From positions 16,563,317 through 16,627,316 of the forward strand of contig NC_089312.1 in NCBI RefSeq assembly GCF_036669915.1: a stretch of DNA of 64,000 nucleotides, written 5' to 3'. The notes beneath the pieces were generated by a model. The model ran no database searches, had not been told where the DNA came from, and saw only the letters and a list, made by a program, of their open reading frames with translations. The stretch's first letter is position 1, and every line of letters begins with the position of its first letter. Position numbers and translations under genes: made by a program. Source of the stretch: Pocillopora verrucosa (Eukaryota; Cnidaria; Anthozoa; Scleractinia; Pocilloporidae). Of the stretch, positions 12,601 to 53,700 are shown in pieces.

Positions 12601-15600
12601 CAAGTCAAGAGTAAAAAGGACAAGTGAAAATATATTAAGTAATGCAAGAACAATGAAAATTTTATTTTTGTCCCTCTAAATATAGTTCCCAGAGGTGAAC
12701 TATAGACCTTTTGGGGAACTGTACCATAGGAATAAACACATTCTCTCCATTGTTGTTCCTAACTTAAAATGTCTTTCACTTGTTAGTTTAAATAGAACTT
12801 TTAAGAAATTGAAAGGAAAAATACAAACAAACAGTTGTTATATGTTCTAAGAATTAATTATGTTTTTAAATAACGAGTTAAGACGATACAGAAGGGACAA
12901 AGCTAAGGCATTTAAATGTGTAGGACGGCTTGACATGCAAATTTAGAACTTGAGTGCTAGTTTTGTCCATCTAAACAAGTGAGGATAAAAAATGACTGGT
13001 GCTGGATATGAGTGCCTTTTTTGCTTCGGGGTTTGTCTGTGCACAATCAATTCCGAGTTTATCCTAGTTTTTACAAATCACCCTAATAACAGCAGGGGGT
13101 CACTCGCCTTTTCAGGGCCTGTTACGTTCCAGACAACTCTTCCTACGAGCACGTCGATGATTTGAACGACGTTGGGTTTATTTCTTGGTGGCCTGGATAG
13201 AAGGACGTCATATCGCACCATTTCCACGTGATCAAACTTATAGCTGACCCACTTGTCACGGATATATTCGCCAAGCTTTCTGTTTTGCTCTCCACCACCA
13301 ACGTGGGGGCGCTTTGTAAAAATGCTACACGAATAGATATGAGTGAAAAGTTAGCTGAATCAAATGAAACGAACGCGAGGCGAGCGCGAAGGCCTCACGC
13401 TCGCCTCGAGCTTGGTAAAATGGAGCGAATAGTGAATGGCACGAGGTTCGGCTTACAACCCGACCCAGACTTCCTTCTTCGTTTATTTCACTCATCCGCT
13501 ACAATATTCTCGGTTTGTAGCTGACGTCATACATATATGCAAATTAAGCGCCGCCATGTTGGTGCTCATCTTAGGTGTGAAATTTCATGCAAATACAATG
13601 CCATCTCTGTGGTGCCCTCTTTTAAATACTTTGTTCGATGAATACGTCGAGTGAAAAAAATCCAGAATTCCATGGGAATATTTTCCTTAGGATACCCGCG
13701 CTTTCGAACTATTCGGAGGGCCTAGAAAGCCATGTTCGAGAACGAAAATTTCTGTGGTAGGTGTCGATCCAGCAGCCATTCCAAGAGAGCAGTTCCACTT
13801 AGAATGTTTGCCCCCGATAGAAGTCTCGTACCTTCTTTCCTGTTTAGTTCTGGAGACAAGTTATTATACAAATCATCAATTTAAAGCTTTTAAAAATGTT
13901 GAAGCGTACATGCAAGTGATGTCTGGCTTCGTAACATCGGTTCAAGGAGCAGAGATTCCCAACAAGATTCTTGTTGTGGCGAAGGTGAGACATTCGCAGC
14001 GGATGAACGATCCTCTTAAAGACATTTGGATCATCGCAGAAAGTGATGGTACCATTCTCTCTACTCATTGCTAAGGCTGCAAGGCAGGCCTTGCTGAATC
14101 CTGCTCGCACGTAGCGAGTGTACTTTTCTATATCTAAGCAGTGACAAGAATCCAAGGGAAACTCGCATGTGCTCAAACAAAATGCACGTGGATTCTGCCA
14201 ACTTATGTTAGAGAAGTGCCGTACTCGAAGGTGCGGGAAATCGACTTTTAAAAACACGATGGACCAAAGAATCGACTCTCAGCACCCAAATTTCGGGGAA
14301 CAGCAGGAAAACTCAGTGGAAAAGGACGATCAAAGTAAGCCCATCGCGTTTCTATCAGAAGAAGAAATGCAGGCTGTGTATGCGAAGCTAAAATTAAGCT
14401 GTACTCAGCTTCATCGACCCCTATGTTCACCAGTTTATCGATGAGAGCCGCTCACTGCCGATTATTCCCAACCTATTTGAAACGGGAAATGTTGATCTTG
14501 ATTATCCAGAACTACTGAGAAAATGTGTTGAAGTGACATTGGATATTTCTGATGAGGACGTAAACAAAGTGGAACTCAACAAAAGAGATCAAACTAGTGG
14601 GTCAGGATTTCTTAGACATCGAGCTGGCAGAATTGGTGCGTCTGAAAGTCATGCAGAATTTCACACAAACATTGCACAGCCCTCTCACTCTCTGATTAAA
14701 ACAATTTGTTAACCATGCCTCTACATAGTTAACAATAAAGCTACCAGGCATGGTCAGAGGCATGAAAGTCATGCTGTAAATGCATACGAAACTGCTGTAA
14801 AAACTGGTCATGTGAACTTAACTGTTAAGAAGTGTAGCTTTTTTTATCAACAAAGAACATGAATTTCTCCATTCCACTCCTGATTTTCTAGTGTCATGTG
14901 ACTGTTGTGGCACTGGATGTGGTGAAGTGAAGTGCCCAATTATAATCAAAGATGGCAACTTTGAGAACTTTGCTCAGCAGAAGAATTCCTGCCTAGAAAA
15001 AATGAATGGACATTTACAGCTCAGAAAAAGTCACAGCTATTACTATCAGGTGCAGCGGCAGCTTTTCTCTGTGCCTGAAATCAAGTATTACGACTTTGTG
15101 GTTTGTGTCATTGATGAGAAAAAGAGCATGAATTTAATAGTGCTGTGCAAATATCCAGATGTGCAGCACTGGAACTCTGTACTGCCCAAACTGGAAACAT
15201 TTTGGAGAATATGCATTCTTTCAGAAATTCTAGGGCGATGGTAAACCTGAAGATGCACAATGCCCCCTAAATTACCAGATAAGGATGCAATTTGTTTTTT
15301 TTAGGAAAATCGGACATAAGGAGACCATTTCATGCAGTAACAAAAAGTGCCCTTATGAAAGGTTTCACCCTTCCTGTCTTTAGCTCACAACCATGAGGAA
15401 GGATGGAGCATGAAGCTACTCTCAACTTCCCCAATTCAAGAGAAGAGGTGGTACCAGGACATCAGCACAACCCTCTATGGCATCTATTCAGGCAGCTATG
15501 AAATTGGATAACATTTGCATCTGCAAGGCTAAGCCTAGTACAACAGAGACAGTTGTAGAATGCCACGGAGACAGCTGTAAAAATTGGAAAATTTTTCCAC

Positions 15601-24368: not shown

Positions 24369-25214
24369 TTACGAGCTCAACCACGTACCACTGGCCGGGA
24401 CTGTACATGGATTCATAGTCCTCAAGACATGCGGATCACGCGGCAGGCGTTTGATCGCCCGAGAAGTTGCCTTTGTCAGGGAATGAGCAGTCCATTGGTG
24501 TCGAGTTAAGGCATCAGAGCGACTGTATTTTTGACCGCAACCCAACACAACACACGTAAATACTTTTTTCTCGGAATTTTGAAGATGTGTCTTTTGATGT
24601 TTGCTTAAATGATCTTTTCGTCCAAACGCCTTATTGCATATGTCGCACTTGTGAGGGCGAACACCGGTGTGGATGCGTTTGTGGCGCGTCAATTCCTCGT
24701 TGCGAGCGAATCGTCTATCGCAGCCATCAAAAGTACATTGAAAAGGCTTTTCCCCAGTGTGAATCCTCAAGTGACCTTGAAGCTGACCGTTGTTGCTGCA
24801 TCGTATGTCGCATAACGGACAAGGGTATTTCTTCTTTCTTCCTTTTCCATTCAAGTTTGGGACACAAGCGTTCGATTTTTCGACCGATTCCTCCAGTACT
24901 TGTAAGACGGACGCACCGGATTTAAAATTCTTGGGCGGTTGATCAGAATTTTGTGGCACGACACAAAGAGAAGGAATAACAGCCTGAGAATCAAAACTCA
25001 TCGGAGACGCTTGGACATTAACAGGGGGTGGAGGCGTTGTAGTGAAAGCAGCAGCAAAGCCAAGTGGTCCCACCGGCTGCTTCCAAAGCGATGACGAATT
25101 TCCCAGCTCAGGCGGACGAAAGATTTGTTGAAGAGTCGGCAGCGGAGGTGCGTGAAAAAGAATCGTTGGTTTGAAAACGCGAAACAAACCCAGATTATTT
25201 TGTGTGGCTTGCAT
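24369..25214 (-). CDS. C2H2 zinc-finger transcription factor, EGR/KLF-like, intronless
   Basis: A single open frame of 281 residues begins with ATG at 25214-25212 and has no splice sites. Residues 1-125 are proline- and serine-rich with no domain I know. Four C2H2 fingers follow, at about 130-152, 158-182, 188-210 and 219-244. The TGEKPF and TGVRPH linkers join fingers 1-2 and 2-3; a longer LQNSEKKV linker precedes finger 4. Helix tips read NNGQLQGH, RNEELTRH, RKDHLSKH and RSDALTRH. These resemble the EGR/Krüppel-like pattern, so G-rich DNA is a likely target (inference). Finger 4 has the odd histidine spacing H-x4-H (RHQWTAH). A CCAAT motif lies on plus at about 25300. The exact family is unassigned. 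Confidence 0.85.
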   Translation of the reverse strand: MQATQNNLGLFRVFKPTILFHAPPLPTLQQIFRPPELGNSSSLWKQPVGPLGFAAAFTTTPPPPVNVQASPMSFDSQAVIPSLCVVPQNSDQPPKNFKSGASVLQVLEESVEKSNACVPNLNGKGRKKKYPCPLCDIRCSNNGQLQGHLRIHTGEKPFQCTFDGCDRRFARNEELTRHKRIHTGVRPHKCDICNKAFGRKDHLSKHQKTHLQNSEKKVFTCVVLGCGQKYSRSDALTRHQWTAHSLTKATSRAIKRLPRDPHVLRTMNPCTVPASGTWLSS

Positions 25215-27118
25215 GATTCAAACAGCTCCAACAAAACACAAGAAATGTGCTTTGCTTGACAAGATGGGATTGACACGGAGTTAGGTGGGGTGACAAACGA
25301 CCAATCACAGTGCTCGTTGTCGACCGCACTGTAAATGGAGAAGATAAACTAAACCTTTCATGGCTGGGCGTGATAGGGGGCATGAGAGATTTGAAGGGCC
25401 ACCTCGTAGTATCAGTCTGAAAGGATGCTTTTATCGCAATGTTAGATCACAAAGTTTGCTTAGTTCACAAAAATGCTTCCTAGCACGGATTACACAGATT
25501 GAGATAATCCAGCTTGGTAGAGGGTTTAAGTCATGTTTCGCCGATAAATTCTTAGTTCTGCTTTGTATAAATATTTATCGGCACCTATCATATATATCTC
25601 AAATGAAAACAATCGAACAGTAAAACCTCACACAGCAGTGAATGATAAACACAACCCAGGAGGCGGGATCATTGAGTTTAAAAGAGAAACAACATGTCTT
25701 AATAAGAAAATAACAGTTGGGCTCATTTGTGCCAGAAACGCTAAATGGATTTATGGCGATGAAAAAGGACGATTTATTTATGTTTGGTCAAAAGTACCTC
25801 CAGGCATGAAATGATATCCTCTCGAGTTTACGGGTGAATAAAAAAGGCGGAGATTGGTGAGATTCTCAGCGCTTGCAAGCAGTAGTAGTTTTTGTGCTTG
25901 ATATATGGTCTGTTTCTCATCAATCTAATACTATTAGCATATTTGTGCAATTTACACTTAAGGCTGTATTGGGACTCACGCCCGCGCCGCACTGAATGAA
26001 CCGATTACAACGCAGTTCGGAATCTTCAACACCGGAAATTATTTGGGAAGCTCTGAGGTCAGGGCAGGCATTGAAAAATAAAAGGTCACTAACTTCCTGT
26101 TCGATTACACGCAACACACCCCCGTCGAATGAAAATAGTGGAGATGCCATAATGAACAAATGGCAAATACATCTGTCTCTAGGACCTCCCATGCTAACGG
26201 TGAAATAACAGCGGTTGAAACGTTGAGCAAGAATTACCGGACCACAGGGAAATATGAAAGATCGCTCAGTGCACATGATCAAGTCAAGATTTATTTATTT
26301 GGTAGGCATACTCAGACGGTTACGATTATTAAGTGGGAAACGTTCGACTCACCTTCGATTATATTTTGTTACTTGTCAAACCGGTTCTACGCATTAGATG
26401 TGATAAGGAGTAGCAAATATTTCGGTGAGCAAACGGTTATAAAGAGATTAATTACAGCTAAATCAGTATTTTATCAATATGCGGAGCAATCAGCTAAAGA
26501 ATTGTTCAGATTTGTTCGAGCAGTGCACGCTAATTGATTTTTTTTTTCGCCAAAAGTTCACTTTTGTTGAGTGAGCAGCACTTCGTGTGAGCCAAGTATT
26601 TTCGAACTGGCGGCCCCACGGGCCGTGTCGAAGGACGTGGGTGTACCGACATATCCCACGGGTTTCCGAGTTAGGGACGTAAGCAGGAATTCACGATCTT
26701 TCTTATTCCTAAAAGAAATGCTTTTCGAAACACCTCTGCCTATTAGTCACCGATTAATTTGAACTGATGATCTCAGTGTGAAGCGTGAACGGACACTTGT
26801 ACAACTCTCTGCAAAGGGTCATGAAGTATCCGGGTTTGATTCTGGGCCTCGTTTAGCTAGTTACTTAGTTAGTTCTCCCCGAAAAAGTAATGATATCGCC
26901 AAACTCCGACTTTGCTTTGCATCAGTCCCAAAAGGTAAAGTGGGAAAGGCAACGCCGAGGGAGACGTCGGTTAAAAAAAAAATTCTAGTTTTGGATAGAA
27001 TTTCGCGAATGGCTGGATGTGTTCACCGTTTCTTGCGGCGCCACACCTCAACTTCAGCATTACTTACGTGAGCGTGAGCTGGGTTGAGTTTCAAATGGAA
27101 GAGGGTCTCAATAAGGTT

Positions 27119-34993: not shown

Positions 34994-35347
34994 GATTGAA
35001 ATTTTTTGGGTCTCTTTTCTCAGGGCAAGAGATTCGGAGCGAAAAAAGAATTTAAACTTTCGATCGCTCGCAACGTTGTAGCTAAGTGTCACGCGTAGTG
35101 CACAAAGAATGGGAAAAACTCTCGCTAGAAGGGTAGGGAGGGTGTTTAAATTTATTCAAAAAATTTTGACTCCCATGAGCTAGTAATGAAAATAAGGGAG
35201 ACATCCACAAAGCTGGACCAAATTCTAACAAAGAATGCTCGTTTTGTCAAAATATAATTCAAGAAAAGAAAAAATCCAATTTAGTCACGGTAGTCGTGAA
35301 CATTTCGTCGCTGTCCGGGTTTCACATCGGATCGAGGCACAAAAAAA
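34994..35347. promoter_or_regulatory. Shared divergent promoter region of PEBP and WDR91
   Basis: Only 354 bp separate the start codons of two genes pointing away from each other, so both core promoters and leaders must fit here unless upstream exons exist. No TATA box is obvious on either side. The WDR91 start has an A-rich leader (CACAAAAAAA before ATGG). Confidence 0.55.
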
Positions 35348-38300
35348 ATGGCGGCTGCAGTGCCGATGCTAGACGACGTAATCAAGGAGTACCTTGTATT
35401 TCGCGGATTCTCAAACACTTTGAAAAGCTTTGAGTCTGATTTGAAAGCAGATAAGGACAAAAGCTTCCGGGTAAGTTACTTTAAGGAAATATTACCAGCC
35501 GCCATTCAACATAATTTAAGTGAAATTTAATTTCACTTTCGCGAAAGTTTAAATCTTCCTGGCTTCCTTCTTCGCGAAAGTTTAAATCTTGGTGGCTGCA
35601 CGTGCCGAGGTTTTATTGCCCAATTACCAGACCTGCATGCAGAGTATAAGATTTACCCATCCTGCTTATGTGCAGTCTTGTTCGGGCAATAGAAATATGC
35701 AATTGACATGTTACAATTATAATTACTTCAACTTCTTCACGTCACGTCACTGGCACATAACAGATCCTCAGGGTGAGGAATGCGCATTGGGTAAACTGTC
35801 GTCTTAAGGCTTTTTCGATTGAGTGTTGCACAACCAAAACCAAAGTAATCACTTTGTAATCAAGAGCCAATGAGAACTCAAAATGAAAAAAAACTAAAGA
35901 GCAGGGAATTGCGAGCAACCAAGTCCTGATTAGGTTTAATTTTGCTTCTGATTAGTTGAGAAAGTGCTGCAAGTTTTTCGGACCAGTCACAGATTGGACA
36001 CTTGATTTAAAATTGCTCTATTAGGAATCATTATTGTGATTAGGTCAGAGTTCCATTTCAAATCAGTAGATAACAATGCAATGTAGTGCCAGACCTGAAA
36101 TCACGACACATGATGACATATGCATCATGCATCAAGCAGCTCTATATAAGAAACTGATTTATGCCTGCATTTTGATTGGTTCTTACTTGTGATATATTGG
36201 AGGGCAGATGCATAATCAGATGACAATGCCATTAACCCTTTAACTCCCAGATCAAATTGGTAATTCTCTTTACTGTCAACCATACAATTCTTATAATGTT
36301 AGTTCAGGAAATTTAGTATTGGATCAACCAATTATCACCAAATTGTATTTCTCTCAATTCTCATTGCTCATCTGGTTGATATTGTTTTGATATTGCAAGG
36401 AAAAATTCTGTCGAGGTCACTCATGGGAGTTAAAGGATTAACAATATTATAGAATCTATTTGCTTTACATAATTAGAGGCATGTTGCTGTAGGTCTCATT
36501 TACATATTAATTAGTAGCTCTTAAATACTGAAAAAAGAAGGAAATGTAAGGAATGTGTTAGTTTTAGTCAAATGATGCCATTGTGTGGGTGGTCTTGTTG
36601 GGGAATGCTATTTGAAAAAAAAATGTAAATTGCTTGGTTTAAATTAATGGTCATGAGATACACATACATACAGTAAGCCTAGTCTTGAAAAAAATTTTCT
36701 CAGGATGTTATCGTTGCAAAGCTTAATAGAGTTCCTTTTTTCAGGTGGACAAAATTGTGGATCAGTTGTATCAGTACATCCTAAGCTATGACATTACCAG
36801 CCTTAGAGATTACTGGGACTATTTAAATGACAGATTCTTCAAGAGGTTAGACTATCAGCACAATTCAAATGTCAAAAAGCTGGAGATGTGTCTTTTGCGG
36901 CTGTACATTGTGCATGCCATACAGAACTCAAAAAATGACAAGGTTGTGGAGTTTTTTGAGAAGTATACAGCAGAGCTACAGACTCAAATAGAGTGGAGAG
37001 AATGGTTTGGTAAGTCACAATTTTGTCAGATTTTGTTCACAGACAGTAATGTATAATGCATTTTTGACCAGTGAAAACACTAATTCTCTGAGTCCTTATC
37101 ATGTTTTGGATTTACCAATATTTTCAATTAAGTGTCCTTAATAAACTAGTATGATAATTGTGCTGGTTTCTCTCAGTAGCCACTTGTGTCCGTTTTGAAT
37201 TTCTTTGTTGCGATAACATTGGTTTTTGCATTTTGATACTCAGTCGAAAATTTCTCAATACAGAATGTGATAATACATGTAAGTAACTATCTTATATTAT
37301 TTTAGTCATTAGACTGATCCTATAGAGATTAAGAAGTAATCATCATAATAATTATTCTCAAATTCAAATTCAACATAACCTTGGTTTTTGCAACTGATAT
37401 CGATCCCTTTGGTAATATTCCTATATTATGGTCAGTTCATCCCAGGAATCAAGATGAAACTTGAAAGAGTTCACCTTGTTCATTTCAACAACCAAGCTGG
37501 AAATTCACTTATGATAGGACCAAGCAGGAATCCAGCTTGCTAACTAGAATAAAAACTTCTGATAATCATGAACAATAGACAAAATCTATTCTGCTACAGT
37601 ATCTGTGGCAGCTGAGTTATTATAGGCAATTGGTGCAAGGAGTTTTGATATGGTCCTTTTCCTTGTGTCCTAAGAAAAACTTACTCCTTTTCCCTTGAAA
37701 CAACTGTTTTGTTGAGAGGTGTTTAGCTTTGAAATGGAGGTTTGATATATCTTGTTATGATCCTTCTAAATTTTTGCTTATATGAAATTGGTCTGTATGC
37801 ATCAGGTGACAGAATATTCCCTAGCTAAAACTGGATATATCATCCAGGTGATATTCCCTCATTTCCAAATCTTATGTCCACTAGGATAAGTCTGTGTTTA
37901 AAATTTGATTCAAGATGAGAAAGCATTTTATGGTTGTTACCTTGAAGAATGGATATATTTGTTTGTTCATTAAGTCACAGCAGAGAACGCAGTAAGCTGT
38001 TTGTAAACATTTTTTGATGTACATTGCAAAATGTTTGTAACATACAATGTACACATCATCTGTTCCAAAAAGCTCACAGTTTCCCTTGAGCTTCATTCTC
38101 AGAAAACTGTTCACATCATGGAACAGATAATACACTTGTACCTATTTGAATATTTTCCCCCCTAATATAGTGTTCTGTTTGTCTTTTTTTAAGCCATTCC
38201 TTTCATCAAGAATCCTGATCAGAATATGACATTTGAGATGTACTTTCAGAGGGCATGGCAAGAGACTTTTTTCCTTTCACTTCATAACTTTCTGATTACT

Positions 38301-41300
38301 TTGTTTCATTACCTGCATATCCTTTTGAGTAGAAAAAGTGACTTTTCATGTTAATTTCTAGAAAAACAAGTAAGTATCTGATAATATTATGATCTCTCTC
38401 ATGCTTATAGTTTAAGGCAGCTTTATCACTAAATCTGGACATTCTTGTTTGAATGCTGATTTTGTCTAGTATTCTACTTTGCAACTGAAACTGGAATAGG
38501 CATACTGCATTAGTGATTTGATGGTAAATTTTTGTCAAAGAAAACTACATTTTGCAAACATGTTCATGAGCCACTCCACATATGGCTGCAGTTTAACTGT
38601 TTTTTCTGGACATTAATTTCCAGAAGTGATTAACTCGTAACTTCTCCCTATAATATCTAAACATTATCCAGCAAACAGGTGATGAGAATATTCAAACATC
38701 AGGTAGAAATTTTTGTCTTGATCTAACACCAAATTCTTGTAACTAGCTTATGAGGAAATATGTGGCAGCTAGAGGGGAGATTTAACAATCAGATCTTGGT
38801 AGTTAAAGGGTTAGTTGTTCACATAATTATTAACAACTTCCTTCCTAACATCAGTATGCACATTCTCTATACTGTTCTCTATACATGTACCCTTCCTAAG
38901 GTGCTGACAAATAGAATTTGGTCAATAATCAAGAGCTTCTTAAAGTTGGTGATCATTTCCTCTACTCTTGGTATCTAATGTGTGATTCAAGGGTGATATT
39001 ATCAAGAGAAATTAGACACTAGTCACACTAAGGGGTAAAAGGGTTATTTGAGTAAGGTTTTTTACCTTTGCTTGGCCTTACACCAATGCCTACAAGCACA
39101 ATGCCTACAAGCACAATGCTTACAAGCACAATGCCTACAAGCACAATGCCTACAAGCACAATGCCTACAAGCACAATGCTTACAAGCACAATGCCTACAA
39201 GCACAATGCTTACAAGCACAATGCTAACCATTTCTCAAGTTGACTGCATGATTCTTTCCAATGAGACTTGAAAAATAATGTAACTTCTGTATACCCCTGG
39301 TGCTGGTTGTCTTTCCTACAAAGTCTGTGAGATTTGTCCTTAATGCTTTAAACCTATGCCAACCCTTCTAAAGTATGACGAGGAACGAGGAAAGTTGCAC
39401 AGGTTGGAACAGGAAGTCCTGAAACTTAAAGAGCAGGTTGTATCACTAGCAGACGAAGGAGCAAACTTACAGCGTCAGAAATCTAGACTAGAGCAAGAGC
39501 TATCAGATAGCCGGAAGAGAGCTACCACTGTTGAAGAGGATGATATGGAAGAGTTTCAAGTTATCCCAAGGTATTATCTAGACTAATGATATATTACATC
39601 TCTCATTTTATTTATAATTATGCTAAGATTTGTCAATTTTGGAGGCCATATTTCACCTTATAGCCTGATAAATTCAAAAGTTTGTCCACATTTAAAATTT
39701 CCCCCTCTATTTCATCCAGAAATATTATCAATATCTTTCTTACCTTGTGTTCTTAGTCCATACTTTAAGTTATGGAACCTTGTTTTTCTGCTCGGATTTA
39801 CAGCCTGTGTGCTGGACACTTGCACCATAAAGCAGAGTGGAAAAAACGTGGTCTGTAACATACAGTATGGACCTCTAACTCAGTCAGTAAGAGGTATTTA
39901 TTTTCTTCTTCCATGGTGTGTGGCTGCCATGTGTAAGTCTTTTTACCTGTACAGATCCTCTGGATGTGTATTAATAGCCAGAAAATTACAAGATGTTGTA
40001 TACTTGCAAGCAAACCTCTAAATCTTCAATTTGTGAAATGATTTGCAGTACTCAGTAGGTTAAAGGAACAAAAGCTGAGTTAAAGGTTAATTTCAGGTGT
40101 TATTAATATTCACAGGCAACAAGGTCAGTCTAGTAAGTTTCTACCAACTTCTTCAATCTCAAAAAAAATTACCAAAATGTTCAAAGATAAGCAAGAAAAG
40201 AACAAAAAGGGAAAAGATTCAAAAGTGCAACAGCTTCAAGAGGATCAAGTGAAACTTAAAAGACAACAACTAATCAGGCAGCAACAACAATTACAGGTTA
40301 GAGAAATTCGGTAACCTATGGGTAATTATTTAATTACTGAGCTTGTATAGTTTGAATAGGGCACTTATCATAAAAGGAGTTTCAAATGAGGTTCTATGTG
40401 AAAGAGGATCCTAAGAGATGTATATGTAGGGTGTTTTATAGCTGGTCCACAGCTAATCTTTTTCTTTGTATTAAAAGCAAGTTCACATTATCGTTCTGCG
40501 GAAATTTATTTCAAATAAAGAAAGGTATTTTACTGCATTGTCTAATTCAAGTAGGTGGTGCCTTGAAAAATGGGTAGTTGGCAAAAATGCTGGTCAGGAA
40601 CACTTAAATTCACTTAATTTGCTCATGGCTTTTATTCTCCTTGCGCTAAATACATTAGATAGTTTGCAAGTAGGTAAAGCACTACAGTTTTTATTTTTAT
40701 TTCATAGGAAAAATTGATTTGAATCAAGTACCAAGCATGGTTCAAAAATTACTTTTAGACTAAAAATACACTCCCAGTCACCCCTTGTCAACACCCTCTT
40801 CTTTTAAAAATGCCCAGTTCTCATTAGAGAGCACTTTTTAAATGATTGTTTCACTGCTCAAATTTCTTTAAGTAACCACAACCTCTTGAGTCATTTTTTG
40901 TCTCAATTAGAAGAATCTGGAGGGGTGTTAATTGGAGGGCTCAGAGCAAGAACGATCCCTTGATTTTTCGGCCATTTTTGAAATTGTCCACATGCCAAAA
41001 TTCAACTACTTCTGAACACTTTCAAAAATGGCCGAAAAATCAAGGGATCATTTTTGCTCTGAGCCCTCCAATTGTTCCTCTAATCTTCTTTTGTGAAAAT
41101 CATAGAATCTGATGATCTCATTGCCTTTCTAAATTGTAAACAGTCACACAACTGAACATTCAATCATTCTCCTGTCTGTATTTATATAAAAATTGGAAGT
41201 TGGATTTTATTCCATGATGTCAAGTGCACATACATGTAAATGAAAAAAGGAATTTGGGAGTAGTAAACTGGTGTAAATTGAATGATATACAGTACTGTAG

Positions 41301-44300
41301 AAAGAGTTTTTTCTTCAGAGGGAATTGTTGTACACTTGCTTTATTGCAACTGATTGGTGGATCTGATTCCATGCAACTTTTGACCTCCTGATTTGATTTT
41401 TACATGTACAGCAGTATTTCCAATGGCTACTACCGCAACTGATCACTTTTTTTTTTTTGCAGTTGCACTAAAGGTGTTTTTTTTTTGTTTGAAGAGTCAG
41501 TTGATTGAATGTACTATATTTGCCCTCTTTTTCTCTAAAGCAATTACAAGAACAGCAAAAACATTTATCCCACATGGAGGAAGAGCAGCTGAAGTCAAGT
41601 GCAGTTACTTCTTCATCTGAGAAACCTCAAGGTCAGGAGGTTGAAGTTCAGACTGACTCAACACATGATGAGGAGGATGCTAGGATCTCAAAATTAGGTT
41701 TGTCAAAAACTCTCAGCTTTGAAACATCCTCTGCTGCAAGCCAAGATGACAGAGAAAAGTTTGGAAATGCTATCCGCAGGAGTAAAACATTGCCTGTAAG
41801 GCTGAAAGCAACTCAGGTGGAAGTAACAGAAGACAAAACAGGTAACCATTCATGCAGGGGTGGAAGTGGGGGGTGGAGGGATTTCTTTCCATTTCAGGTG
41901 AAAGTTCTTACATTTAGGTGTATTTAATCTTCACATATCTATCATGGCAATGACAACCAGTGAGTGTCATAACTGTTTAAGTTACACACTAGGGAGAAAA
42001 CACTTTGTCTGACATTGAATGTTGCAAAAACTGTTGTATGTGCCAAACCTTACTCTTGATTTGTTTTGTGGACACTTCCCATCTGAAAGTCAAATTTTGC
42101 TTTGTCTTTTATTGATTTATCATGTTTTTTCTGTCTCACATTATTCTTCAAAATAGCCAATATCATAAAACACTACAACAGGTACTCTATGTACCTCCCC
42201 ATAATGACAACCCCTCCTGTTATCCTGAAGGTGGGTGTTTAAGAGCTGTTTTGAAAACTGTTTTATACCTTGATCTTACTCAATAGTTCAAGTTGTCAAG
42301 AGTATGATAACCTATGACTATTCACACCAGGTATTACATAAACAATACTTATCTTGGAAACCCTTTTGAACTGGCGATAGTCTTGCTACAATTTGGCCTT
42401 AGAACAGCTTAAAAAATGCGTGACAGAATAAGTGGTAACAGTTGGTTAAGATCATTATTGTATTTTTTTGTAACCAAGGGACAATAGATATAACCAGTCA
42501 TGTTTTTATTTTTATTATCAATTTTAGAAGATGCACTTTCTAAAACAGTTCATTTTGAAGGTGAGCATGATATTCACATGGATCAATGTAATTACACTGT
42601 AGCTTGATTTTTCAGGTAATACTGCAGGTATTTGTATGAGCTTTGAACATCAGGTAATTTTAGTGAAATCCTGTCTTTGAATATCTAACATCAAAAATAT
42701 CTCTCAGGTGTATGTGATTACATGCTGTGGAAGAGGTAGAAGTCACTCCTCATTTATTTGTTTTCATTTTGAGAGGTGGAAGCCCAGTTAAAGCCATAAA
42801 TTACATGGCCTGTACCCTCACTGTAATATACAGGATCTCCTTTCAGCTGAATAATTTCTTAATATATATCTTTTCCAGGCCCTGGTGACCACAAGTCCAA
42901 GCATTTTCTATTTCTTAGCCAGGTACATGTATTTTATGCATTTTTTTCTTTATTTATACAAACATATTTTCCATTGTTCTTCCCAAAAGCACCCAGGCTT
43001 AACATGGGGATTATAATGCATATATTTCTCAGCCATGTTAGACCATATAGCATTTCAACAAGATCAATGGCTTATAATATCACTGCCGCAGTCAAATTGT
43101 TTAACCTTTCCCAACAATAACTGACACCATTAAATTTCATACCCTTTCCAAGCAGATAGATAGATAGATAGTTTATTATCAAGAACCTTGCAGCCACAGG
43201 CTGAATTACGTTTGATTTACAATAAAATATATACTACAAAAAATACATGGCTAAGAAGAACTAATTAAAAAGACAAAAATATATAATTAAGAGAAAAACA
43301 ATATTACATCATTGCTTTATGGACATAGTGATGGATAAAACTATTTCGAGTACGAATGGTGTGGAGGCGCCGTGTAGTAAAAGAGTGCTGACTCCTTAAA
43401 TTGACTTCGCACTCATTCTTGGGAGGTAGTAAGCTATAGAGCTTGTGCGAGGGATTAGACAGGATGGAATTAAAAAGCTTATCACATAAGAACTCGCGGC
43501 GGTTGTGTAAGGGAACTAGACCAGTCAAAAGAAGCGCCTCATTGTACGAACAATCTGGATAGATAATACGTAAAGCTCGCCTTTGACATCTCTCAAGATC
43601 TACTGAAAGGTATTGCGGGAGGCTATGATGATAATTAAACAGGGCATGCATATTCAGTGACAGGCCTAATACAAGTCAAATAGAAGAGCAAAAGTTCCTC
43701 CGACTTGACCTGTGCACGCTTAAGCTGACGCAAAAAATACAGGCGCTTGTTTACTTTTTTTACAACTTCGGATACGTGATTATTCCACGTAAGATCGCAA
43801 GATATCTGCAAACCTAAGATCTTTGCTTGCTCTACACACTCTAAGTCCTGATCATTAACCTTAATTGGATCAAAGTTCTTTCTAGAGTGACTGAATGTTA
43901 TGCGCAGTTCCTTGCACTTGGTTTCATTTAATTGGAACTTGTCAGCAGAAGCTTGCGTCGCGAGTTCGTCAACCGCTTGTTGGACTTTGCTGACCTCAGA
44001 CTTCATGACTGTTTCAGAAATAGTGGAGTCATCGACATATTTCCACATGTCTGTACCCGGGATGATGAGGTCGTTTATCATAATAGTAAATAACCAGGGG
44101 CCAAGTTTTGTGCCCTGTGGGACCCCTGATGGGATGGCCCCCACTCCGAGTAACAGTCCTGACTAAGTTTAACACGCTGTCGGCGACAGGACAGAAAGTC
44201 CACTATCCAGTCAATTATTCCGCTTGGAAGATCGTATGAAATGAGCTTCTGAACTAGGATCTGATGGTCAATAAGGTCAAACGCCTTGCGGAAGTCAAAG

Positions 44301-47300
44301 AGGATGGTTCTGACAGTTGCACCGTTCCCATCCGTAGCACTAAGCCATGAGTGGACCATGCTTATTAGTGCTTGTGTCGTACTGGAACCTGGCACAGTCC
44401 CAAACTGCCGTACATCCACTTTCGCCAACACAACAGGCTTGAGGAAACTCTCCACGACAAAATCTTCAGCAACCTTAGAAAGCACGGGAGTTAGGGATAT
44501 TGGACGTAGATGTTTGTTTACATCGTGTATTGGATTCTGCTTTGGTACTGGAGTGATGTTAGCGTCCTTCCAAGACTGAGGCAACCGTGCTTCCTTAAAC
44601 GAACAGTTAAGGATATCAGTCACAGGCAGTGCTAGTAAATCTGCATTCTCTTTAAGAAGCCAACCGGGGATTCCGTCCGGACCGGTTGCCTTAGTTGGAT
44701 TTAAGGCGGATAGCTTCACATTAGGTTCACAGGTTTACCTTTAATGTACTCTGGCTTGAAATAAAAGGGGGGGGGGGGGGGGCTCTGACTGGTGTCCTGA
44801 AATTTGTGCCTTTCGTCATTGTCAGAAGACTAATGTTATTCTAAATGCTGCATATGGAAACAATGATTATCAAGTTCAGTGTTTGAATAATAAAAGTAAA
44901 TGATCTGCTGATTCAAACTTAGTGATGTATTATTCCTAGGATGTATACAAAGAGCATCACTCAGCAATTGTGCACTGCAAGTTTTCTTCTAGCAGTAGGA
45001 TGATTGGAAGTGCTGATGCTGACGGGATTGTCAAGTAAGGGACTGTTGCTGTTTTTTTTTTCACACTGAGGGTGTGCTGTCATGGTTTCCTTCCCTATTT
45101 GTATTAATTTTATAAAATCGTTTTCATGTTGAAGTGAGGGTGTTACACCACACAACCTTGACTGTGTTGTGAAGGGCATGTTAAGATTACCCAGGGTCTC
45201 TAACCTTTTAACCCCTAAGAGTGACCAGTATCCTATTTCTCCTTACAATGTCACCCCTGAATCAAACATAAATGTCACAAGAAAAAAGGAAATGATCACC
45301 AACTAAAGAAGCTCTTGATTGTTAAACAACTTCTCCTTGTCAGCACCTTAGGAAATGTATAGAAAACAGTATGGAGAATATGCATACTGATGTTAGGTTG
45401 TAAAGGGTTATCCCTATAACTCCCAGGTCAAATTTGTAATTCTCCTTACTGTAAACCATACAATTCTTTTAATGTTAGTTCAGAGGATTTAGTATTGGAT
45501 CAACTAATTATCCCCAAATTGATATTTTCCTTTATTCCCATCACTTATCTGGTTGATAATTATTGTAAAGAGAAATTCTGTCTTGGTCACTCATGGGAGT
45601 CAAAGGGTTAAGCTTGATCAAATGATTTTCTTCATGGTTGATTGCGAAAATGTGCAGTTACATGTAAGATCAGTGTAAAATTTTATTTCAAACATTTATC
45701 TCTTCAATGAATATTCATTCTGTATTTTTGTTTCTTCATCCTCGTTAAGTTTTTCTTGTAGAATTGCACAAAACATAACATGAACCTGGAAGCACTAAAT
45801 GCCAGTAAGAGTAAGGGCAGTAAGTGAAATGTTTCCTTCTCATCTGATCTCTAAACCTTTTGTGACTAGGGTTTGGACAAACCATCCTGACATCCACACC
45901 AGTAGCACTGTCATGTGTAAATCTCCCTTGCTGTCACTGGAGTGGGCTCCGAAGCCTGACAGACTGGTAAGTCAAAGTCAAGCTTCTACTCATGTAGCTT
46001 TTATTGTGACACTGCTTTTCTAAAACTTGAATTTGAAAAAAAATGCTCAAGCCTTTGTTTAAATTGCCTTTTCAGTATACATTTCCACATGCTTGTGCAA
46101 ATGCCATAAATTCTGTTACTTGATATAGTGGTTCTGCAGGTTGTTCTGTGAACTAAAGCGAAAAGTTTGTCAACCCAGTTAACCCTCTAACTCCCGGACC
46201 AAATTTGTAATTCTCCTTACTGTCAACCATACAATTCTTATGATGTTAGTTCAGAGAATTTAATATTGGATCAACCAATTATCCCCATATTGAAATTTTT
46301 CTTTGTTCTTATCACATATCTGGTTGATATTGTATTGATATTGTAAAGAGAAATTCTGTCTTGGTCACTCATGGGAGTTAGAGGGTTAAAGTTTATGTAC
46401 AACTTGTGTCTTTATATCTCTTAATAATTATTACAAATTTGTTGTTTATATTTTCAAGTTTGTCTGATGTTTATTCAAATTGTGACTCTCTCTCTTAAAT
46501 GACTTGAGACTCATTTTTTGCCTTAAGTCAGCGATCTGTCTCTGATCAATACAGAATTGAACATCTCTGTTTTATGCTCCATCTCTGTCGCTAGTCAAAA
46601 TAAAGATTTATCACCTTCGTGTTCATGTTATCACCTTGAGATAGTGCAGACCATATATCATTGTGTATTGTTTTTGTTGTAGCTTCTGTTAGGCAGTGGA
46701 AATAGTAAAATGTGATTTTTGACACAGAAAATCATTCTGTTTTATGCTCCATCTCTGTCGCTAGTCAAATAATGATTGATTACTTTCATGTTCATGTCTT
46801 TTGTGGATAGAACCTTTAGATATTGCGGATTATATCAGTGTATATTGTTTTGTTGCAGCTTCTGTTGGGCACTGGACATGGTAAAGTACGATTTTTTGAC
46901 ACAGAAAATAAAAAGACCATTTGTGATGTCACGACTGACTCTCATCATCAGTACCCCAGGTGAGCTAAAGGAATTCACTCTTTCTCAGCGTCTTAATGCA
47001 CCTTAAGTGCTTTTTCTTAATCTATTCGAATGGAAGCAAACACGCGAGACACGCGGCTAATTTTACCTACACAGAGAATACAAAAGGAATGGTAAATGGT
47101 TATTGCAAACTCTGATCTCGGTCAGTTAAAGACCCTGACATACACCATGAACAGTGATGCTCGAACTTGGTACAAGTTCGTGACATGCTTTAAACACACT
47201 TGACACACGACAGTACCTTCACATACAAACTTGCTACTCAGTAGGGTGGTTTGTATATTCTCGATCTTAAATAGGCATCGACTTTTTTGCGCAAACTAGG

Positions 47301-50300
47301 TATGTTGTTTACACTTTCTCATGGAATTAACGGGATTTCTTCAGAACAGACCAAGATACATGACCCAACACACCAGTCTTGTTGCAAACACCATGCTAAA
47401 CTTGACGTCGACTTAAAGACTGAAACAACATTCTATCAGTTCAGTTGCTAGAAAATAAACAAAGGAAGAGACAAATACGAAAACAAAATCGATTTTCATT
47501 TCCAGAATAGTCTCATTGTCGTGCAGTCCTACCGGAGCAGCTTTTGTGTGTTCAGCGGCAGCAAATAAGAAATCTTTGACGTCATCGTTGAGGTTATCGC
47601 AATCGTTTTCAAAATACAGTGAAATGTCCTCGTTGACGTCGAACAGTGCAGGTAGCGGCGCGGGTGTGTTACAGTGTTGGGATATGAAAGCCATGAAGGT
47701 CGAGGTATGTTATCTTGGGATTGGGTGACTATCAGTAGTAAGACGAAAACATTCTTTTTATCTTATCATCATCTTTTTAGGTTTTTTTTTTTCATTCGGG
47801 AGAGGGAAGGGAGCCTTCTGTACCTCTTCCATTTGGATCTTTTTGATTTGAAAGGTTTCTTCACTCCTTATTGGTTGGTAAATCATTTCTTGTGTAATTT
47901 TTCTTATTTCTCCCAGCGTCTCCTTCCCCTCGATCCTGTGCCCACTTGTATAAACTGCACGGCGTTTAATCATAATGGAACTCTTTGTATATCAGGAGGA
48001 GCGGATGGCATGATACGGCTGTTTGGTGAGTCATCACACGCGATGCAGCGTGTTACGCACGTGTAATTGTTTGGGTTTTGCAGCCCATTTTTGATTATGA
48101 TAGTAATGATAATAATATTAATAATAATGATGATGATGATGATGATGATGATGATGGTGACGATGATAATAGAATTTAACTTTTAGACTGAATAGACTGA
48201 TCCGCGGATCCACTGGGAAAACGCAGGTGTAAACTGGTGATCGGTATTTTTCGTTTTCCCGTTGGGTTAAAGGAGCCAAGAATGATATAATTAGTCGTTT
48301 TCTATGCATTATTACTTTTGTTATGAGAGCAACTTCTTAAAATTAGGGATCGGTCTTTATTTATCGCCTGTGGAGTCTAAGGATTTTGGTTGTGGAACAA
48401 TTTCCCCCCCCCCCCCCTCCCCCCAGAAAAAAAAAACTCTGTAGTATTCCAATGATCCCCTTCACTGGCCGTCAATTTCCTTTACTTCCCCCTTATACTC
48501 TGTTAGCGCAAAAAAGGTTTAAATCTGAAAATTTTAAGGTGCAGAGTCAGTTACTCTACATGGAATGTCACGATCTTTCCGCCCTGAAAAATTTTGGTCT
48601 CAAGTTTTGAAAAATGTTACTCCTCTTGGCATTTTGCACCCCCCCCCCCCTTCCTCCCTTCTACGTGCAATGTTGAACTATGAACAATTTTAGTGGCAGA
48701 GTTTGCATTTCCTTATTATCCAATATTGAAAAGAGTAATATGGGTTCATTCTTGTGAGTTTTCTAAACTGGTCTCGACTAACTGTTACTTCAAACTCGGT
48801 AAAAGCGTGGTTTTTTCTTATTTTGTTGCTCATACAGATATGAGGTCGTATGATTGTTTAATTGGTTGGCAAGCTCATGAAGGTGAAGTGTGTTCAATGC
48901 AGTTTAGCGCAGACGAAACCACTGCTTACAGTATGGGAACAGACGGCAAGGTTAGCCATAACGCTCGATACAGTCGACTCCTTCTTAATGAACATCAAGA
49001 CCTTACCTCGCACTAAAAAAAATCAATCGTTAAGCGGATTTCCCGTTACGATTTGCTCAATATAATTAGCGCCGAAACGTATTCTTGTTTCCACTGATAC
49101 AGTGAAACCTGGATGCCATACTATTCCTTCACCGGTAACCACCTATCATTTTTTCAGTTTTCCCCGACAGTTCGCTGGCCCCCATTCATTCTCCTGGTGA
49201 AGAGCCGATCTGTCAGAAAAAGGTTTCTTGCCCTAGAACATAACACCATCAGGGACTTTTAGTAGTTCTTATAACATTATCCATAAAGGCGGAGCTGAAA
49301 AAGACTCATCGTTGATTAGCGTTTTCATGGCTTCCTACAATTAAACCGAAAATTATCTCAAGGATCAAGAGGGCGAGAGTGAAGGGACACGACTCATTTT
49401 GTAGAAACCTAAACAAAATGCGGTATGTGGGTGATAGTGGAAGTCATCTGCTTTGGACTGGAATTTCCTTTTAAGATGATTCCTCCAAATAAAAATTACA
49501 TGACAATTTTTTTAAACTTTTCTTATATGTTCCCTACCAATGTATGTTTCGAAATATATGATAAACTCCTGTTCGCTACGTGTCACGTAAACTGGGTTAA
49601 TCTCTATAGACTTCACAGGACGAAATCACATGTTTCCGTATTTCTGAAACGTGGCGGAAACATGCAACTCCATGTTTCCGTTATGTTTACGTAAAAGTGG
49701 TCCGGTTCCGTTGTATACGCAGCAACGGAAACGCGAGAAAACGTCACGAAACCGGTAACGGAAACACAGGTTATCCGTCGTGTTTCCGGAACGGTTTAAC
49801 ATGTTTCTGCTACGTTTCCGTTTACGGATTCTTGCAGTTTCGTCCTGTGCTTACTCATATTTGTTATCTTTTTCTCCTAACTGGCCAGGGATCGATTTCA
49901 GTATCTAAGCACTTGCGAACCTACCCCTCCCCTAACCCAACATTAACCTTTACTTATTATCTGTTTACTGATGTTGGGTTAGGGGAATGGTAGGAGTGCA
50001 GTTTCCCAAATACTGACATTGATGATTGGCCAGTCTAGCAAAGGGAGAAAATTTGATACAAATAATTTTGCTCTTATTACTCGTAGTTCTCACAGTGGAG
50101 TGTGCACCGCATGGGTCAAAGATTAACTGACGTTGATATACACGACGGGGCAGTGTGGTGCGATTCAGACAAATCCTCTCAGAGCAAGTACAAATACATG
50201 AGTTCACCATCATCTTATGGCAAGATGTTTGTTTTTGATTCTGAAGGACAGTATCTTCTTTCCTGTGGACCGGAGTATGGAGTAGTATATAAAGTAAGTT

Positions 50301-50749
50301 GTGTATTGCTAAATACAGTGCGTACCGTCTAAAACATCGCAAACGAGGTCACTCAGTGAGTATAGTTTTTTGGATTTCTTCTTTGCGTAAAAGTGTGGAT
50401 TGTCCTCCTATCCATCTGTCCTTTATTCCTTCTTCCCGTTCACCTTCTTCTCGCCAACCTCCCTTTGTTTGTTTCTCTTCTCTTCTCTTCATTCAATATT
50501 TCGAGCCTCCATTCATTCCTCTCTCCTCATTACCCCCTTTTCTCGGCTTTTTTTTTTTTTTCAAATTGACTTCATTTTCTAACCTTGCAGGTCGAGAAGA
50601 ATCAGGGTTTGAGTCAAGTGTTAACTTTACCAGCTGAGCACAAGTCACCAGTTGTAAGCGTCGATTGGAGCTCCTCTATGAGCTGTTCCACATGCCTCAC
50701 TGGCTTTGCGGATGGATCAATACAAGTAACATCTTTGCTAAAAAATTGA
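35348..50749 (+). CDS. WDR91: WD repeat-containing protein 91 (WDR91), endosome maturation factor
   Basis: Sixteen exons give 788 residues (human 747): 35348-35470, 36745-37009, 38194-38316, 39354-39570, 40116-40296, 41541-41841, 42528-42560, 42879-42922, 44940-45034, 45870-45966, 46859-46959, 47506-47704, 47917-48025, 48838-48950, 50087-50293 and 50591-50749. All junctions keep frame. Residues about 8-35 form a LisH-type helix pair (DDVIKEYLVFRGFSNTLKSF). EWREWFAIPF and SLHNF match the conserved N-terminal region. A coiled coil runs at about 176-225 and a Q/K-rich stretch near 260-320. From about 425 the WD repeats begin (KSPLLSLEWAPK, INCTAFNHNG, WQAHEGEV, VDWSSSMSCSTCL). Known WDR91 works with WDR81 and Rab7 to lower PI3P on early endosomes. 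Intron 3 appears to be a U12 AT-AC intron; the others are GT-AG. Confidence 0.95.
35538..35590 (+). repeat. 20-bp direct repeat in WDR91 intron 1
   Basis: TTCGCGAAAGTTTAAATCTT occurs exactly at 35538-35557 and again at 35571-35590. Each copy contains the palindrome TTCGCGAA. Confidence 0.8.
36232..36441. repeat. MITE family A, copy 2
   Basis: Inverted ends TTAACCCTTTAACTCCCA and TGGGAGTTAAAGGATTAA. It lies in WDR91 intron 1. Confidence 0.85.
38621..38813. repeat. MITE family C, copy 2
   Basis: Reverse-orientation relative of 33161-33355. It ends in TTAAAGGGTTA, which it shares with the start of the family-B copy that follows. Confidence 0.65.
38803..39045. repeat. MITE family B, copy 2
   Basis: Reverse orientation: CTAACATCAGTATGCACATT, AAGAGCTTCTT and TTGGTGATCATTTCC occur in order, then GGGTAAAAGGGTTA. 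It abuts family-C copy 2 through a shared terminus. Confidence 0.75.
39091..39225 (+). repeat. Minisatellite, 9 x 15 bp
   Basis: Nine exact-length units of TACAAGCACAATGCC, with only C/T variation at the last base. The array sits inside the U12 intron, about 130 bp before its acceptor. Confidence 0.95.
40931..41072. repeat. Foldback (hairpin) element in WDR91 intron 5
   Basis: Arms of about 53 bp (40931-40983 and 41020-41072) are almost perfect reverse complements around a 36-base loop; GATTTTTCGGCCATTTTTGA and its complement are exact. Weaker pairing extends outward to about 40910 and 41091. Confidence 0.85.
43154..44719 (-). mobile_element. Truncated LINE (non-LTR retrotransposon) reverse transcriptase
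   Basis: On minus, a reverse-transcriptase region runs from 44719 to about 43304 in three overlapping frames. It has TGPDGIPGWLLKE, RPISLTPVLSKV, FDFRKAFDLIDH, GVPQGTKLGPWLF and the catalytic YVDDS. The thumb region (KILGLQISCDLTWNNHV) and a C-terminal LERCQRRALRIIYP block follow. Frameshifts near 44140 and 43645 kill the frame. The 3' end is an (ATCT)n tail at 43155-43171 in minus sense. No endonuclease domain is present, so the copy is 5' truncated. The type resembles CR1/L2 or Jockey-like LINEs. It lies antisense in WDR91 intron 8. Confidence 0.85.
44767..44782 (+). repeat. Poly-G run of 16
   Basis: An uninterrupted run of 16 G residues, just upstream (plus sense) of WDR91 exon 9 and next to the 5' edge of the LINE. 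It is prone to length error in sequencing. Confidence 0.9.
45201..45410. repeat. MITE family B, copy 3
   Basis: Runs from TAACCTTTTAACCCCTAAGA to TTGTAAAGGGTTA and directly abuts a family-A copy. It lies in WDR91 intron 9. Confidence 0.85.
45411..45611. repeat. MITE family A, copy 3
   Basis: Runs from TATAACTCCCAGGTCAAATT to TGGGAGTCAAAGGGTTAA. It begins inside the terminal GGGTTA of the family-B copy to its left. Confidence 0.85.
46179..46388. repeat. MITE family A, copy 4
   Basis: Ends TTAACCCTCTAACTCCC and GGGAGTTAGAGGGTTAA are perfect inverted repeats. Internally it is close to copies 2 and 3. It lies in WDR91 intron 10. Confidence 0.9.
46561..46910 (+). repeat. Tandem duplication over the start of WDR91 exon 11
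   Basis: Two copies of about 170-176 bp (46561-46733 and 46732-46910). Each has the block TTTTATGCTCCATCTCTGTC, a pyrimidine-rich acceptor and the first 50 or so bases of exon 11. In the upstream copy the exon part reads LLLGSGNSKM followed by TGA and has lost a base, so it is a pseudo-exon. The downstream copy carries the working exon at 46859. Confidence 0.85.
48096..48170 (+). repeat. GAT/AAT trinucleotide microsatellite
   Basis: An imperfect (GAT)n run, about nine consecutive units from 48127, flanked by AAT repeats. It lies in WDR91 intron 13. Confidence 0.9.
49614..49849. mobile_element. MITE with CACAGGACGAAA inverted ends
   Basis: A 236-bp element begins CACAGGACGAAA and ends with its exact reverse complement; CTT flanks both sides. 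The inside is built of repeated GTTTCCG / CGGAAAC blocks (about ten, both orientations), so it could fold extensively. It lies in WDR91 intron 14. Confidence 0.75.
49891..50022. repeat. Palindromic element, family P, copy 1
   Basis: The left arm (TCAGTATCT, ACCTACCCCTCCCCTAACCC) pairs with the right arm (GGGTTAGGGGAATGGTAGG, AATACTGA) around a loop of about 30 bp. The same design occurs at 63551-63682. Confidence 0.85.
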
Positions 50750-53700
50750 GGATTACTTTCAGCTTTAAGATCAACGAAAGGGTTTGTTACCTCGTAGAAC
50801 ATAATAGTCGATCCTTTGATATCACATCCGTTCAAATGCAAGATGGCGTCAGAGTTACAAGGACAAAAGTTTCTGGAAATACTCAAGATTACATGTTTTT
50901 AGCTTTCGTGTACCCGCACAATCCCTTCCTAGACTCGTGATATGAACTATTAAAATTAGAAGTGTTTGGGAAGTACTAGAAAAATCCTTATACGAGTCTT
51001 GTGAGCCTAAGTTTGTTATGTGCTGCAAGACCACACATTTATTTTTACCCTTTGAGTGATGTGTCCATGTCCGTTGTAGTAGAGCTTAATTCTCGTAAGA
51101 TGATCGTCATCGTTATTCGTGTTTGGGTTTGTCCTTGACCGTGCTCAGTGTCCTCAACGGGAAGTTTTTATAGGTTTTAATTCTCGAAGTTTGGTTGTGT
51201 TTCAAGTACTTTGTTAGTCGTTTCAAATGTCTTGTGAAATTGTTTTGGTTAGTTGTCCCGTAAGCCCAAACATGCCTACCGATAGGGTATTTAACTCTTC
51301 AACCCCTAAGAACCAGCATCTAACTTCTCCTAACAATGTCACTACTGAATCACACATTAATGTTATGAGAGTAAAGGAATGATTCCCAACTAAAGAAATT
51401 CTTGGTTATTAGACAAATTCTCCTTGTCAGCACCTTAGTAAATGTACAGAGAACAGTATGGGGAATGTGAATACTGAATTTTAGAGAGAGAAAAGAGAGA
51501 GCCTCAGAGAGCGAAATAAACTGAACTGATCAGACTCCTGGTACCTTCCGTTCGCGTTTGGTGTTCAAGCCAGTCTACCCTAATAGTCCCAATACTCGAG
51601 AAAACGTCCGAGGGAGAGTTGTTGCGGTTTCATAAAGGCCACAAGGCTGGTCCTTCTGTCTACCACAGTCAGCCCAAGATAAATGACCCACTGTGTCAGG
51701 AAGAAACTTAATTTTGTATTCAAATTGTTTTTCTATTTGTTTTATAAATGGCAACTGAAAATATCTTTATTTTTTTGCCCAACGAAAGGGAAATAGTCGT
51801 TTTATTATTTAATGTTATAACTTTTGTTTGAAGAATGTACTTTGTTAAAACTGTCGATAGCGTTATCAAAGATCGCATCAGGATGAGTAATATATGCAAT
51901 TGAGATGAGTTATGTGCTGTATGACAGTTGAAAATATATTTTTTTTTTATTTTGAAAAATTGTAGTAGAAATGATTTACAAAAACGGACATGAGCGGGAT
52001 AAGAAAGTGAAAGGTAAATGTTTGTAACAAATAGTTTGAATAAAAACATGTAGGTCATTTTCTTCATAACGGATATTACTTATTTATTTTCTTTTCCTGC
52101 ATGTCATTGATGGACCCTCAAACCTTTCCACTACTTCCATTTGGTATGTTTTGTTTCAATTTGGAGAATTAATTTTCTTGTTTGTTGAAATAGTTCTCAG
52201 AGGCAAACAAGAAGATAAGAAAGCGAAAGAGTTTGTAGCAAATAGATTATAGACTAGTAGAAAATCTTCATGTTACTTCTATACTAAGATACGAGTAAAG
52301 TTCAATATGCTTTCTTTATGAGGGTTTTTTTATTTTTCTCATTTTCCCCTTATTTTGATTTGATTGTAATCAGCTACCCGCAAACCTTTTCTCTATTTCA
52401 CATTTGGTATATTAATTTCATTTAAATTGCCTTAGGTCATGATAAAAAGTATTTTCCCGTCTGCCCCTCCCACTAAAAACGGATTTTCACACAGCCTCAC
52501 ATACAGCTCACTGCAGCTGTATAGCAGCTGGTAGCAATCAATAGCAGGGAAATTTGTACCTGATTTTAAGAGATCCCTTAGCGTTTTTTCAGATATTGTA
52601 ATTATTGCCCTCGCGTAAAATAGATGTTCTTTAAGTTTACTCCAGGCTCGGCCATTGTTTTGGGACACAATGACATGTTGCGTAGACTCCTTTGCAATTG
52701 TTGTTTGCTATCGTTGCATCACTCGTTCTCCCTCAAGCCTGTCCAAGGCGTTCAGCCAGTAAACGGGGCGCTCATAGCAACTATTGTTGCCTCGTCTTTC
52801 AAATAAACTCCTGGAAAAGGCAAAGAGTAGGTTGTGTGACTAGATCAAATGATGCCAGTTGCGAAGGAGACTGCATTTTTCACAACGCGCTGCGCTTTAG
52901 GCTCTCATTTCAAGTGATAGGTTTTCCATGGTGTACATGGCGTGACCTGCGTTGATCATCGCCGCTCAAAATCGCTTCTCTCACCAGGAATAACCTCACA
53001 CCTCATCTCCCCTCCCAGTTGAAGGTTAGAGCGAGTGCCTTTTGTCGTGGGTGTATCCTGACGAGCTATTAAAATTACCTCGATATAGTAGGCGAACAAT
53101 GAAAGACTCGTGAAAGATTGCATCAGTCAGGCGTCTCACCAACTGACATGAAAATACACTTATTGTCGACGCGAACTTGAGCTGTCACTTGTGATGTACG
53201 AAACTTCCTCAATACTCTAAAAAAAGTTTTCCTTATTCAAAATTCACGCACTTGGCCGCGCCTTCAAGATTGCAGTGATGATAGGGTAGCTTTGATGCAG
53301 ACCCTCGACATAGCCAGCTATATCCGAGGCGAAGATGACATTTTCGGCCCCCCCCAAAAATGAATTGAAAAAATAAACACTTCCATCGCAATATTTTTTA
53401 AATTTCTAGCCCATGATAATTTATTGACAGTAACTCTTTGGTAAGGTTAGTAAGGGCTCTGGTGAATTTTTGTTGCAACACTTTCACGTTAAAATCACAA
53501 GACAACACGTTAATTGACACGTGTCTTGCATTGCTAAAGCGAAGTCTTCCGCGGGTAATCCCCTGCAACCTTTCAGGGAACAATTCGAGATGATGACAAC
53601 AGAGATTCTCTCAGTGGTGAGTTGCCTGTTTCTTCGAGTCCCTTTGGAGCCTCTTAAGAAGGACTTCGTGTATAGTTAGTCAGTTAGTTATTCATGTCTG

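Follow-up and report, generated by a model that had tools for sequence, protein, structure and literature searches.

Does WDR91 of the coral Pocillopora verrucosa carry an intron of the AT-AC type that is removed by the minor instead of the major spliceosome? The question was raised by a window of 64,000 nucleotides (the whole stretch of DNA analysed, from whose first base all positions are counted), in which an initial annotation had placed such an intron. We addressed it by building a model of the host gene, by fixing the borders of the intron, by enumerating competing splice junctions, and by comparing the splice-site motifs with chance expectation and with the other introns of the same gene.

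The gene was delimited by tblastn with a provisional, non-database version of the human WDR91 protein as the query, which returned collinear WDR91 pieces from 35348 to 50740. On the + strand, the coding part starts with the ATG at 35348 and ends with a TGA stop codon at 50747–50749 (35348..50749 in total), with 14 coding exons placed and none placed within 41842–44939, an interval in which one or more exons outside these 14 are possible. The WD40 half of the model matched the WDR91 chains of solved structures (8kb8 and 6vyc) at an E-value of about 1e-103; together with the tblastn pieces obtained with the provisional human protein, this upheld the naming of the gene as WDR91. The N-terminal half (exons 1–6 joined) matched Pfam CTLH_Armc9 with 67.1 bits, the reading frame of exon 2 alone reaching 28.4 bits. 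WDR91 is an endolysosomal regulator; no paper linking it to both LisH and endosome came up in a literature search. One rival reading is that the gene copy is decayed or misassembled and its junction unused. Any exon or exons absent from the model within 41842–44939 might suggest as much, but the frames stay open across the joins of the 14 placed exons, and the WD40 half reads through to the stop codon; we give this reading next to no probability.

In the gene model, the third resolved coding exon (38194..38316, + strand) ends in ...TTACCTGC, with its last base being the first of a Pro codon, and is followed directly by intron sequence beginning ATATCCTTTTGAGT. At the other border, the intron ends in ...TTGTCCTTAATGCTTTAAAC, and the fourth resolved coding exon (39354..39570, + strand, placed by exon borders and joined frames) restarts at 39354 with CTATGCCAACC. 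The border sequences at 38316 and 39354 agree with those proposed initially, and the intron coordinates 38317..39353 (+ strand, 1037 bp) are exact. Joining 38194–38316 with 39354–39573 yields a single open frame reading ...LFHYLPMPTLLKYDEE..., with the splice junction lying in phase 1 within codon 171 (Pro) of the model; restoration of the reading frame by the splice, which had also been claimed, was thereby confirmed.

The motifs expected of the minor class were then located on the + strand. The 5′ splice site ATATCCTTTT at 38317..38326 is a full match to the U12-type RTATCCTTT, the branch site GTCCTTAAT at 39336..39344 agrees with TTCCTTAAY in eight of nine positions (the first base being G, not T), and the intron terminates with AC at 39352..39353. 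The branch motif in its shorter form, TCCTTAAT, occupies 39337–39344, the position at which it had been reported. Its candidate branch adenosines at 39342 and 39343 stand 11 and 10 nt, respectively, before the last intron base, a distance that adjoins the optimum of 11–13 nt given in a passage of a review, according to which either A may serve (PMC3584512). Phase 1 likewise agrees with the under-representation of phase 0 among U12 introns described in a section of PMC7367187. The pyrimidine fraction in the 20 nt before the 3′ end was 0.65, which does not set the intron apart from the other 11 resolved introns, with their values of 0.55–0.85. As judged from the sequence, 38317–39353 falls within the definition of a U12-type AT-AC intron, and the donor, the branch site, and the terminal AC all fit the class and subtype assigned in the initial annotation.

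For the evaluation of alternative junctions, all combinations with the first intron base at 38251–38420 and the last intron base at 39280–39429 were enumerated and scored against a segment of the provisional human WDR91 sequence, not a database copy. Among seven classes of terminal dinucleotides, 75 junctions were free of stops (19 AT-AC, 16 AT-AG, 13 GA-AG, 11 GT-AC, 6 GT-AG, 6 GC-AG, and 4 GG-AG), and the 38317/39353 junction was the top among them with a score of 177 against the provisional human protein. The runners-up by class, scored on the same segment, reached 164 (AT-AC), 156 (GT-AC), 144 (AT-AG), 141 (GA-AG), 135 (GT-AG), 127 (GC-AG), and 61 (GG-AG). The AT-AC junction with a score of 164 (38308/39353) was rejected, as it drops three residues and is without a U12 donor.

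The same enumeration bears on the supposition that the AT-AC motifs are coincidental and that the true intron is of the ordinary GT-AG or GC-AG type with shifted borders, or is in fact a pair of GT-AG introns flanking a small exon. Six GT-AG and six GC-AG junctions in the tested range were indeed stop-free; however, they scored at most 135 against 177 and lost conserved residues, and were rejected for their low scores and these losses. The earlier assertion that no GT-AG pair can restore the match is true in this range, where all six GT-AG junctions lose conserved residues. A small exon would find no space, because 51 residues across the 38317/39353 junction align gap-free with the provisional human WDR91 sequence (26/51 identical). 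Taken with these points, an ordinary intron or intron pair appears highly improbable.

When any termini were permitted, 2855 of 25500 junctions were stop-free, two of which scored 180 (TT-TA and AT-TT) and two of which tied at 177 (GC-AA and CA-AA). These four combinations were rejected because such termini fit neither spliceosome class. Homology by itself leaves the junction uncertain by a few bases, and the splice-site motifs pick the exact one. Further searches covered the joined exon 3–4 segment: in the PDB, five matches were obtained up to an E-value of 1, none of them meaningful (best E-value 0.083); a genome contig collection, which is not one of animal genomes, gave 71 pattern matches with none confirmed; and a viral contig collection gave 18 pattern matches, again with none confirmed. 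The Pfam CTLH_Armc9 match stops at residue 167, before the junction codon.

Chance occurrence of the motifs preferred for 38317/39353 was estimated from a 20-Mb first-order Markov sequence generated with the dinucleotides of window positions 35000–51000. In this sequence, ATATCCTTT arose at a rate of 9.0e-6 per base (about nine per million bases) and TCCTTAAY at a rate of 4.9e-5, and the probability of TCCTTAAY occurring no more than 20 nt before a given AC was 6.2e-4. In the window itself, ATATCCTTT is present only once over both strands together, namely as the donor at 38317. Taken alone, the branch motif carries less weight: an equally good match lies upstream of 18 of the 3440 AC sites found on the + strand. 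Because both exon ends are constrained by homology to within a few bases, however, the donor and the branch site would jointly be very unlikely to arise there by accident. Separately from the WDR91 intron, a single copy of GTATCCTTT, a U12-like donor motif, was noted at 57953 (+), with no other on either strand of the window.

Twelve introns of the WDR91 model were scorable, and the 11 resolved introns other than 38317–39353 are all GT-AG. With matrices that approximate the U12 sites from a consensus instead of the published ones, the donor of the AT-AC intron scored 14.1 bits against −18.2 to −0.2 bits for the other 11, and its branch site scored 10.1 against values of at most 5.9 on the same approximate scale. 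With these approximate matrices, the scoring of donor and branch site that had been proposed as a check of the minor class came out in its favour.

Major AT-AC introns have a U2-like donor body after the AT. Removal of the WDR91 intron by the major (U2) spliceosome was considered in this light, as AT-AC introns of the major class are known (noted in a portion of PMC8280824), but after AT its donor continues with ATCCTTTT, which is the U12 consensus and not a U2-like body, and a U12 branch motif is present at a near-optimal distance; we regard removal by the major spliceosome as very unlikely indeed. In all probability, then, WDR91 is interrupted in phase 1, in the Pro codon of the conserved LFHYLPMPTLLKYDEE segment, by a U12-type (minor-spliceosome) AT-AC intron.

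Compared by sequence with known systems, the intron resembles U12-type AT-AC (A-type minor) introns in its ATATCCTTT donor, its TCCTTAAY branch site, its AC end, its short branch-to-end distance, and a phase other than 0. No feature tested differs from that group, and the intron is particular only in its host gene and species. With U12-type GT-AG introns it has the donor body and the branch motif in common, but differs from them by its AT-AC termini, which mark the rarer subtype; the AT-AC share of human minor introns is put at about 22% or 26% in the parts concerned of PMC6717393 and PMC10639083. With major-class (U2) AT-AC introns it has only the terminal dinucleotides in common, the donor body and the branch site being of the U12 type instead, with the donor reading ATATCCTTTT.

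In minor splicing, U11 base-pairs at the donor and U12 at the branch site, after which U6atac replaces U11 at the donor and catalyses removal together with U12, the intron leaving as a lariat. By this general scheme, U11 would bind the donor ATATCCTTTT and U12 the branch site GTCCTTAAT of the WDR91 intron, and U6atac would then take the donor over from U11 and, with U12, catalyse removal of the intron. No minor snRNA was found within the window, where an Rfam scan of 4227 families gave no match above the gathering scores. CENATAC aids AT-AN minor introns, which depend specially on it and show relatively high basal retention, as described in a portion of PMC8280824, and would by that account also aid the WDR91 intron as a member of the AT-AN subtype. 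On retention, the first in-frame stop is a TAA at 38352..38354 (+ strand), 12 codons beyond the junction. Unspliced RNA running into this codon would therefore encode a truncated protein, and inefficient minor splicing would thus lower the amount of full-length WDR91. Any regulation of WDR91 via intron retention is conjectural.

Several repeats and additional features were observed alongside. The AT-AC intron contains a 15-bp minisatellite, CAATGCCTACAAGCA, of 9.4 copies with 96% matches at 39084–39224, about 110 bp 5′ of the branch site. Copies of a dispersed repeat, perhaps a small mobile element, lie in WDR91 introns at 36231–36441, 38831–38941, 45306–45611, and 46178–46389; the stretch within the AT-AC intron (38831–38941) is inverted relative to 45306–45410. 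Intron 5 holds a hairpin at 40930–41073 (arms of 61 nt, 93% complementary, spacer of 22 nt). A reverse transcriptase fragment (RVT_1, E-value 1e-10, 44078–44734, − strand), a LINE-like remnant, lies between resolved WDR91 exons and is adjoined by long reading frames at 43304–44162. Elsewhere in the window, a short-chain dehydrogenase (2307–2630, +), an M28 peptidase with a transferrin-receptor-like dimerisation domain (9675–11021, −), a weak YqaJ match below its cut-off (14822–15244, +), and a C2H2 zinc-finger protein (24369–25217, −) were found.

Cnidarians are listed among the groups with first-reported U12 introns in a passage of PMC2846911, and a survey of over 3000 genomes gives, in the part concerned, a mean minor-intron density in Acropora corals above that of most vertebrates (PMC10639083). 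An AT-AC intron in a coral is unsurprising, because Acropora had already been reported there as rich in minor introns, and a single AT-AC intron in a single gene therefore adds little alone. Our literature search, with supplementary tables and intron databases outside its scope, found no paper coupling WDR91 with “minor intron,” “U12,” or “minor spliceosome,” and a term search of the main text of a paper on human and mouse minor introns (PMC6717393) did not return WDR91; given that scope, the WDR91 intron may already be listed in such tables or databases. On its sequence features, the intron is a sound, ordinary new example of the regular U12-type AT-AC introns. A wider scenario, in which this lineage kept an ancient AT-AC minor intron of WDR91 that most other animals have lost or turned into a major-class intron, and in which WDR91 is or was under minor-spliceosome control via retention, we consider rather unlikely. 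For annotation, a gene finder restricted to GT-AG would misjoin exons 3 and 4 of WDR91, and, set beside WDR91 of other animals, the intron would add one more example of the preservation, loss, or conversion of minor introns.
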